52,334 nucleotides of DNA from Methanoregula sp. (GTDB lineage: Archaea; Halobacteriota; Methanomicrobia; Methanomicrobiales; Methanospirillaceae): positions 1 to 52,334 of the forward strand of contig JAKLGZ010000003.1 of assembly GCA_022710385.1 (NCBI GenBank), in the 5' to 3' direction. Below are positions 12,022 through 14,398 of the stretch, in pieces. The notes below the pieces were generated by a model. The model saw nothing but the letters and a program-made list of their open reading frames with translations. It searched no databases and was not told the origin of the DNA. The position numbers were made by a program, and so were the translations under genes. Within the stretch, counting starts at the first letter, position 1, and the number at the start of each line of letters is the position of its first letter.

Positions 12022-12513
12022 TTAAAGAAACATCTTCTGTATCGCGATTATCTCGGTACTGTCACCCGCCCTTGCATACAACGAGAGCGGTTCTTCATTC
12101 AGTTCGAGAAAACGAGGCCCCCAGTTCTGGCTTTCAAGTACCACCCTGGCCTGCTCGCGCTCCCCGAGGATGAAAAGGGCGGCTCCAAATGCCTCGACCG
12201 AAGTGAGACGGTACGGCCTTCCGAAATTTACCGGGTTTGCTGCCACGAGGAACGGGAGGGCACGCCTCTTTCTCCAGGAACTGACCGCGCCTGTATCGAG
12301 CACTTCCCATGAACAATCAAGAGCAGTCAGCGATCGGGCGGGACGATCAGCAGGTGAAAGTGCCTGGGGTGCAGTGGGATCAAGAAGGATGGTGTTTCTC
12401 GGTATGTGTGAGATTTTGGAGAGTACCCGTACCAGGCCTGAACGTTCCAGCCGTTTCACGGTGCATTTTTTTGGATCGCAGCTGTTGTCCCGGAAGGCGT
12501 AGAGTGGGATCAT
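12022..12513 (-). CDS. tsr3: Tsr3, 18S/16S rRNA aminocarboxypropyltransferase (DUF367)
   Basis: Protein of 163 aa of the Tsr3 family, a SPOUT-fold enzyme that moves the aminocarboxypropyl group of S-adenosylmethionine onto a hypermodified uridine of small-subunit rRNA. The N-terminus carries the family motif CDPKKCT (residues 12-18). The core has ILLDPTAPQALSPAD, LDCSWEVL and the conserved FLVAANPVNFGRPYRLTSVE, with EAFGAALFILG following. Length matches archaeal members. The start at 12513 is only 21 bp from the start of the divergent fusion gene at 12535, so both promoters must overlap each other's 5' end. Confidence 0.93.
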   Translation of the reverse strand: MIPLYAFRDNSCDPKKCTVKRLERSGLVRVLSKISHIPRNTILLDPTAPQALSPADRPARSLTALDCSWEVLDTGAVSSWRKRRALPFLVAANPVNFGRPYRLTSVEAFGAALFILGEREQARVVLESQNWGPRFLELNEEPLSLYARAGDSTEIIAIQKMFL

Positions 12514-12534
12514 CTATCATCTTTCCATCCCCAC

Positions 12535-13407
12535 ATGGTATCAATGTACGTAATGGTCTCTCCTTGCATTCTTCACCCACAACTGCGTGCGAAAGGGATC
12601 ACCCGAGACAAGGACCTGGAATGGTTCTCCCGTGCCATCCAAAGATGTTATCAGTATGGTATTGAGGTAGTACCCCTCCCCTGCCCTGAGACTCTCTATC
12701 TCGGCTATGAACGTGAACCAGGGGTGTTTCTTGACCGTCTGGATACAAAAGAATTTGCTGATCTTCTTGATTTGCTCGAAGAGAAGGTCAGGGAAATTAT
12801 ATCGAAACGAGGCCCTCCCCTCTGCATCGTGGGGGTCAACTCCTCTCCAGCATGTGGGGTGAATACGACCTGGTACGGCCCCCGCGGATCCCCTGATGCC
12901 AGGAGACGGGAGAGGGGTGCATTTCTCTCCCGGTTCCCCGATCTCCCTGCAATAGACGTATCAGATTTTTCCCGGTACCGTGTATATCTTGCAGCCCCGT
13001 TGTTCTCTTTGGCAGAACGGAGGTATAACATTCAGCTTGCAGATCTGCTCCGTAGGAATTGTTATGAAGTCTACCTCCCGCAGGATTCAGGGGATGATTC
13101 ACATAAAAGGGAGAGGGATGCACACAAGGCCATATTCGGGCAGAATCTTGCCGCTCTTGACAGCTCCGATGTTGTGGTCGCGATCATTGACGGACCGGAT
13201 GCAGATTCTGGTACCGCGTGGGAGATAGGGTATGCATTTTCGAAAGGGATCCCCGTTATCTCACTCCGGACCGATTTTCGTAAAGCTGGGTACCATGAGG
13301 ATGTGAACCTCATGCTCGAGCATTCCTCAACCGTTGTTCATTCGGAGGAAGGGTTGGTAGCTGCGCTTCTTTTTCCGGGAGGATTTCAGGCTGCACATAA
13401 ATGCTGA
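12535..13407 (+). CDS. TudS-like desulfidase fused to nucleoside 2-deoxyribosyltransferase-like domain
   Basis: Two-domain protein of 290 aa. Residues about 1-120 resemble the TudS-related putative desulfidases (VSPCILHP, VVPLPCPETLYLG, NSSPACGVNTTWYG). Cys11, Cys50 and Cys107 match the three cysteines that hold the [4Fe-4S] cluster in TudS enzymes, which remove sulfur from thiouracil. Residues about 148-275 resemble nucleoside 2-deoxyribosyltransferases: YRVYLAAPLFSLAER, SSDVVVAIIDGPDADSG and TAWEIGYAFSKGIPV, with Glu230 where the catalytic glutamate is expected. I infer a role in breaking down or salvaging thiolated nucleosides or bases. The start is uncertain: in-frame ATGs at 12544 and 12553 are equally possible, and 12553 gives MVSPCILHP. 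A non-enzymatic sensor is an alternative. Confidence 0.75.
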   Translation: MVSMYVMVSPCILHPQLRAKGITRDKDLEWFSRAIQRCYQYGIEVVPLPCPETLYLGYEREPGVFLDRLDTKEFADLLDLLEEKVREIISKRGPPLCIVGVNSSPACGVNTTWYGPRGSPDARRRERGAFLSRFPDLPAIDVSDFSRYRVYLAAPLFSLAERRYNIQLADLLRRNCYEVYLPQDSGDDSHKRERDAHKAIFGQNLAALDSSDVVVAIIDGPDADSGTAWEIGYAFSKGIPVISLRTDFRKAGYHEDVNLMLEHSSTVVHSEEGLVAALLFPGGFQAAHKC

Positions 13408-13435: not shown

Positions 13436-14398
13436 ATGTCCAATCTCACGGTAGCGGTTATTGGTCCGGAAGGGTATGCCCAAGACCTCGGAAAGAAAGG
13501 AACCAGTTCCGACATCACTTTTTACAACCTGAAAAAAGGCGACAACACTATCACGTTTCTCGAACCAGCACGATATCCGGAACGGCTCGCCTCCCTCTTC
13601 TTCTCGGTCAGCATGGCCGCACGGGCAATCCTTGTCGTTGACGAGATCAATGCTGCATTTGGAGAATGTCTGATCATGCTGGATTGTGCGGGCATACGGA
13701 AAGGTATCCTTGTCCTCCGGAATTATATTACGCCCGAACAGATTGCTCCGCTGATCCAAGGAACTGTTGTCGAACACTACCGCCTGTTGCCTGATGACCG
13801 GATGAGGATACGGGAAGAACTCATTGCCGAAATCGAAGCAGTGAAAGAACCTGATCAGATCAGGGACCATGGAGCAGTCCCGGTCGATCACTTCTTCAAT
13901 GTGAAAGGTATCGGAGTGGTTGTCCTTGGGGAGGTAATCGGCGGGCGTATCTGCCGCCATGAAACACTTAGGGTTCACCCGACAAAAAAGACCGCCCTCG
14001 TCCGTTCCATCCAGAAGCATGATGATGATGCGGAATATGCGATCCCTGGTGATCGGGTCGGTCTTGCCTTAAAAGGGATAGAGACAGAGGATCTGGACCG
14101 CGGATATGTCCTTTCTGCAAGCACTGATATCACCTCTTCTTCTCTGATCAACGGCAGGGCAAACCTTGTCAGATACTGGCCTTCACCGCTCAAAGAGGGG
14201 ATGGTGCTCCATGCCGGACTTTGGATGCAGTTCATCCCTGCAAGGATCGCATTTGTAGACAATTCGGGCGACTGGAAAAAACCAGTTATCACGCTGCGTA
14301 CGGAGTCCGAGCTTGTCTACCGGCCGGGGGCACGTGTGATCCTGCACTACCTGGAGGGAGGAAAACTACGGGTAGCAGGGACGATCGTCCTTGAATAA
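13436..14398 (+). CDS. Archaeal SelB-like protein (aSelBL), pseudo-GTPase
   Basis: Protein of 320 aa with the layout of a translational GTPase of the EF1A/SelB group: a G-like domain (about 1-135), then beta-barrel domain 2 (VPVDHFFNVKGIGVVVLGEV, HPTKKTALVRSIQKHDDD, PGDRVGLALKGIE) and domain 3. The GTPase motifs are gone: the P-loop position reads IGPEGYAQDLGKKG, DxxGH is replaced by LEPARYPER, and NKxD by NYITPEQ. This fits the aSelBL family, SelB-related archaeal proteins with degraded nucleotide sites and unknown function. It follows the TudS-NDT fusion by 28 bp on the same strand. An AGGAG sequence abuts the ATG directly, which is too close for a normal ribosome-binding site. Confidence 0.82.
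   Translation: MSNLTVAVIGPEGYAQDLGKKGTSSDITFYNLKKGDNTITFLEPARYPERLASLFFSVSMAARAILVVDEINAAFGECLIMLDCAGIRKGILVLRNYITPEQIAPLIQGTVVEHYRLLPDDRMRIREELIAEIEAVKEPDQIRDHGAVPVDHFFNVKGIGVVVLGEVIGGRICRHETLRVHPTKKTALVRSIQKHDDDAEYAIPGDRVGLALKGIETEDLDRGYVLSASTDITSSSLINGRANLVRYWPSPLKEGMVLHAGLWMQFIPARIAFVDNSGDWKKPVITLRTESELVYRPGARVILHYLEGGKLRVAGTIVLE

Follow-up and report, generated by a model that had tools for sequence, protein, structure and literature searches.

A TudS-like domain fused to a nucleoside deoxyribosyltransferase domain in Methanomicrobiales, a putative thiobase desulfidase and nucleoside glycosyl enzyme

The window analysed here is a stretch of 52,334 nucleotides from a Methanoregula sp. assembly (contig JAKLGZ010000003.1, positions 1 to 52,334 of the forward strand). 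At positions 12535-13407 of the plus strand it carries an open reading frame of 290 residues that joins a TudS-like domain and a nucleoside deoxyribosyltransferase (NDT) domain in one chain. The listed start, ATG 12535, adds the residues MVS; ATG 12544 (MYVMVSPC..) is the likelier start because all orthologs begin at the MYV or MFI found there, and the gene thus probably spans 12544-13407. The TudS-like domain occupies residues 4-140 (12544-12954) and the NDT domain residues 147-278 (12973-13368), with a linker that is short throughout the order Methanomicrobiales. The original prediction of such a fusion agrees with the features read in the sequence: Cys11, Cys50 and Cys107 lie in TudS contexts (SPC.., PCPE and SP.CG), and the C-terminal half contains AAPLFSLAER and TAWEIGYA with a glutamate, Glu230, at the NDT catalytic position.

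The NDT assignment of the C-terminal half is secure. The Pfam NDT family (PF05014) matches residues 150-255 with an E-value of 1e-25 and 90.5 bits, passing its cut-off of 28.8, and is found in 49 of 49 aligned fusions. A Foldseek search matches the NDT half of the predicted model to NDT crystal structures (the Desulfotalea and Enterococcus structures 7o62 and 7m5h, and CtNDT), which share with the fusion the fold, the catalytic residues and a tyrosine at NDT position 7 but are stand-alone bacterial enzymes. The closest characterised relative is the Archaeoglobus veneficus N-ribosyltransferase (AvNRT), at 42% identity over the NDT half, whose sequence was picked out (row L171) via peptides printed in its paper (PMC7308715). 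Glu230, Asp212, Asp224, Pro155 and Asn258-Leu-Met are invariant across the fusions, so the Glu/Asp arrangement of an NDT active site is present; Asp224 to the catalytic Glu230 (13204-13224) corresponds to AvNRT Asp79/Glu85, and Asn258-Leu-Met (13306-13314) is the NLM motif that completes the active site of the neighbour (PMC7308715). The two proteins share the Glu, Asp, NLM and TD-aromatic-R (tetramer) motifs, whereas AvNRT lacks a TudS domain and has Phe7 in place of Tyr151 of the fusion (12985-12987).

The N-terminal half is remote from TudS by sequence and matches it in predicted fold. The Pfam TudS family (PF04463, formerly DUF523) matches the fusion with an E-value of 9e-4 and 19.7 bits, below its threshold of 34.7; at an E-value of 0.01 it matches 27 of the 49 aligned orthologs, one of which (G027) exceeds the Pfam cut-off. 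The best sequence match is the NCBIfam family NF045597 (CD3072 family TudS-related putative desulfidase), which covers residues 6-134 (E-value 1.4e-15, 57.2 bits, short of the equivalog cut-off of 130) and is found in all 49. Sequence searches of the PDB with this half returned noise only. The model of the whole protein has a predicted local distance difference test score (pLDDT) of 89 and a predicted template modelling score (pTM) of 0.85, and the TudS half modelled alone has a pLDDT of 94.6. The top three PDB matches of the latter are the TudS crystal structures 6z92, 6zw9 and 6z96 (probability 1.00, template modelling score 0.61-0.64), and no other PDB structure comes near them. As modelled, the N-terminal half carries the TudS fold together with the three cysteines; both domain assignments of the original prediction survive.

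In TudS_A the cluster sits on Cys10, Cys43 and Cys104, assisted by Glu45, Ser101 and Ser103, with Arg17 near the phosphate (PMC10611767). Aligning the fusions with canonical archaeal TudS and stand-alone CD3072-type proteins equates Cys11 (12565-12567) with Cys10, Cys50-Pro-Glu52 (12682-12690) with Cys43 and the catalytic Glu45, and Ser104-Pro-Ala106-Cys107 (12844-12855) with Ser101, Ser103 and Cys104. Cys11, Cys50, Cys107, Glu52 and Ser104 occur in every sequence of this alignment, and Arg18, the equivalent of Arg17, in all but three, which have Lys. These six residues, like those named in the NDT half, are invariant among ~70 distinct fusions, apart from one row that lacks Cys107 at a frameshifted end. 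We infer that the three cysteines bind a [4Fe-4S] cluster, and desulfuration by this half is likewise predicted. A point that the first reading overlooked is the loss of the second catalytic serine: the position of Ser103 is Ala106 here and Thr, Ala, Ser, Cys or Val among orthologs.

This loss is one reason to consider a role other than desulfuration for the TudS-like half, which might be an Fe-S domain with a structural or sensory function, or an enzyme working in the sulfur-adding direction. Pro10 and Thr53 are subfamily-specific, Cys38 is invariant in and specific to the fusions, and the CD3072-type subfamily has no known substrate, all of which fit such a role. We regard it as improbable, given the invariance of the three cysteines, Glu52, Ser104 and Arg18; moreover, other TudS groups have a hydrophobic residue at position 38, which makes a buried Cys38 likelier than one that serves as a fourth ligand.

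The fusion was surveyed across the class and the phylum. The class was represented by 232 genomes, of which 214 have a match, including 133 of the 135 good ones, and nearly all matches are full-length. Among 394 genomes spread over the phylum, on which the whole-genome survey was centred, every full-length match listed falls in Methanomicrobiales, and a contig scan for close relatives returned only Methanomicrobiales or unplaced euryarchaeal metagenome-assembled contigs. Full-length orthologs across the class and the profile E-values of both halves are far beyond chance. Both halves are under purifying selection, with a ratio of nonsynonymous to synonymous substitution rates (dN/dS) of ~0.1, a rough estimate because several dS values are saturated. 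On order-wide conservation and this ratio, a chance or frame artefact was rejected. In one single-contig genome (G140), the coding of the fusion is divided between two frames (L066/L083), through a frameshift or a sequencing error.

Outside the order the halves occur apart. In Methanosarcina-type genomes they are separate genes, with both present at unlinked places in, for example, G468 and G422, and Methanosarcina acetivorans carries the TudS-related gene. In the NDT-domain tree the proteins of the order form one clade (98/95), within which four NDT-only proteins of family f2 are nested; this topology argues for a single fusion event at the root of the order, followed by one loss of the TudS half. 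The other NDT-only rows of the clade (L010 and L011) are truncations at contig ends. A further NDT-only protein, L079 of G020, is long-branched and falls outside the clade, its placement unsure, and the TudS half of that genome lies in fragments on another contig. We also considered a mobile or viral origin and rejected it: plasmid, phage and viral collections yielded no fusion, the matches there lying in the NDT half, and the plasmid and phage matches each span less than 80% of the query. Some bacterial plasmids (NZ_CP121643, NZ_CP092969 and others) have an NDT-like stretch inside or overlapping genes annotated as PfkB family carbohydrate kinases, possibly a different NDT fusion.

The NDT half without TudS in some f2 genomes and several Methanosarcinaceae genera points to a TudS-independent role for it. 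Conversely, one genome (G142, L138:5027-5710) retains an intact TudS-like half in a protein whose C-terminus, non-NDT or decayed, no longer matches NDT. Such cases would be expected if two independent activities had been joined for co-expression or stability, with the NDT half in general 2'-deoxynucleoside salvage, the TudS half acting on thiouracil compounds and no channelling between them. We consider this possible, though less likely than not, since the fusion is otherwise whole across the order with its short linker, which is beyond the needs of co-expression alone.

TudS enzymes were assigned a function only recently, and have been described alone or with DUF1722. The fusion shares with the TudS thiouracil desulfidase the common fold, the three cluster cysteines and the equivalents of Glu45, Ser101 and the phosphate-contacting Arg17, but falls under the Pfam cut-off, has Ser103 replaced, carries an attached NDT domain and has a predicted activity only. 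From the CD3072 family, which occurs in stand-alone form in Methanosarcina-type genomes, it differs in scoring under the cut-off, in having Pro10 rather than His before the first cluster cysteine, and in its C-terminal NDT domain. RudS, which removes the 4-thiouridine (s4U) modification of tRNA, follows the same plan of a TudS domain plus an extra C-terminal domain, the latter being DUF1722 rather than the PF05014 NDT domain. According to the RudS authors, 58.9% of TudS proteins are stand-alone and 40.1% are DUF1722 fusions (PMC11417400); TudS-NDT proteins may have gone uncounted there because most lie under the Pfam threshold. In the literature searched, no paper joins DUF523 or thiouracil desulfuration with a deoxyribosyltransferase, and the TudS-NDT architecture is not described. 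The fusion adds a third TudS architecture, near-universal in an order of cultivable methanogens, that would place sulfur removal and glycosidic-bond chemistry in one small protein.

The same genome encodes a separate RudS-like TudS-DUF1722 protein (L216:584-1681, contig C176). Redundancy of the fusion with RudS, as a simple duplication, was rejected since this protein has a serine for the third cluster cysteine (SPTSG). The same SPTSG occurs in the other Methanomicrobiales RudS-like copies read (G012, G103, G222, G057 and G155), and some Methanosarcinaceae copies have SPTIG or SPSMG; judging from these motifs, RudS-like proteins of methanogens may in many cases be inactive or altered.

We propose that the fusion is a bifunctional thiobase desulfidase and nucleoside glycosyl enzyme with a putative substrate and coupling, a reading to which we give roughly an even chance. 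In the TudS-type domain, the fourth, free iron of a [4Fe-4S] cluster held by Cys11, Cys50 and Cys107 would take the sulfur from a thiolated, pyrimidine-like base with the help of Glu52 and Ser104, and sulfide would be released. In the NDT domain, Glu230 would attack C1' of a nucleoside whose 5'-OH is free, a 2'-deoxynucleoside being the likeliest substrate, and another base or water would then accept the sugar. Together the domains would most simply serve salvage or sanitation of thiolated bases and (deoxy)nucleosides, the NDT domain moving the sugar on or off and the TudS domain removing the sulfur; that both halves act on one molecule, and in which order, is a guess. The fusion gives a strong functional hint for the CD3072-type TudS subfamily and points to a class of substrates that can be assayed directly. 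It could also account for thiolated-base disposal in these archaea.

Phe7 underlies the ribonucleoside specificity of AvNRT, the only ribonucleoside-specific wild-type relative (PMC7308715). All 72 fusion rows examined have Tyr at position 7, rather than the Phe7 of AvNRT-type (type III) N-ribosyltransferases, and since Tyr151 is typical of 2'-deoxyribosyl enzymes, a preference for 2'-deoxynucleosides is predicted. Tyr is no absolute bar to ribonucleosides, because wild-type CtNDT, with Tyr at this position, accepts them slowly (PMC12645435). Asp224 and Asn258 are the counterparts of AvNRT residues that were modelled as binding a free 5'-OH; the (deoxy)nucleoside monophosphate N-glycosidases DNPH1 and MilB have a 5'-phosphate site in their place. 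Retention of the two residues would fit nucleosides better than nucleotides.

Several observations weigh against the proposed bifunctional enzyme. The TudS assignment by sequence is remote, under curated cut-offs, and the Ser103 equivalent is lost; the NDT half persists without TudS in the relatives described above; no gene neighbours in the loci examined suggest nucleoside salvage; and the literature searched contains no assay of any TudS-NDT family member. Characterised close NDT relatives favour purines (PMC7308715, PMC12645435), a preference that is hard to square with a thiouracil pathway and that, with Tyr151, fits poorly with salvage of tRNA thiouridine.

The original prediction also suggested that the chain frees a thiobase and removes its sulfur, in either order, to recycle thionucleosides from tRNA. 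Both domains are there, and the tRNA route is the weaker part: the nucleosides obtained from tRNA are ribonucleosides, whereas at the position of AvNRT Phe7 the NDT half carries Tyr151. Recycling would make the NDT half a ribosyltransferase or nucleosidase on 4-thiouridine and TudS the desulfidase of the base, or the order would be reversed. The s4U-forming tRNA enzyme ThiI occurs in this genome and in nearly all others surveyed, and its presence here counts in favour of the bifunctional enzyme as well as of the tRNA route; TudS-ThiI co-occurrence was dropped as evidence, being uninformative for that reason. Known TudS enzymes act on 4-thiouridine and its monophosphate 4-thio-UMP (PMC10611767), the closest characterised NDT is ribonucleoside-specific (PMC7308715), and the slow use of ribonucleosides by CtNDT points the same way. 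Set against the tyrosine at position 7, and the fact that known TudS enzymes need no base release, tRNA recycling is plausible yet unlikely, and not favoured over salvage related to deoxynucleosides, over an NDT of general salvage to which a desulfidase is attached, or over the sanitation of thiodeoxynucleosides. In the last case a dedicated enzyme would strip both deoxyribose and sulfur from thiolated 2'-deoxynucleosides and keep thiobases out of DNA, the source being thio-UMP from tRNA decay that could leak into deoxynucleotide pools. We know of no dedicated enzyme of that kind, and consider this the least probable of the readings.

Upstream, on the minus strand at 12022-12513, lies the divergent gene for Tsr3, the rRNA 3-amino-3-carboxypropyl (acp) transferase (PF04034, E-value 6e-39, and PF04068). 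Leaving aside shadow frames of the fusion and an ORF on the strand opposite Tsr3, Tsr3 is the sole order-wide neighbour: it adjoins the fusion in divergent orientation in 22 of 22 loci (about 5-16 kb each), and every other neighbour with coding evidence of its own is common to at most seven. The NDT-only f2 genomes retain Tsr3 as well, and no decayed TudS remnant was recognised between it and the NDT gene there. The gap between the two start codons is 30 bp here (12514-12543) and 28-36 bp in most genera, with 48 bp in G029 and G043 (f3), 75-80 bp in Methanocalculus, and exceptions such as 1069 bp in G222. Two archaeal promoters of the ordinary kind would not fit into a gap of ~30 bp. What links Tsr3 with the fusion may be a common control region and not a common chemistry. 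Downstream, 13436-14398 encodes an EF-Tu-like protein, conserved in the genus, in which domain 2 alone is recognisable and the N-terminus has no evident P-loop; it is likely a degenerate relative of translation GTPases.
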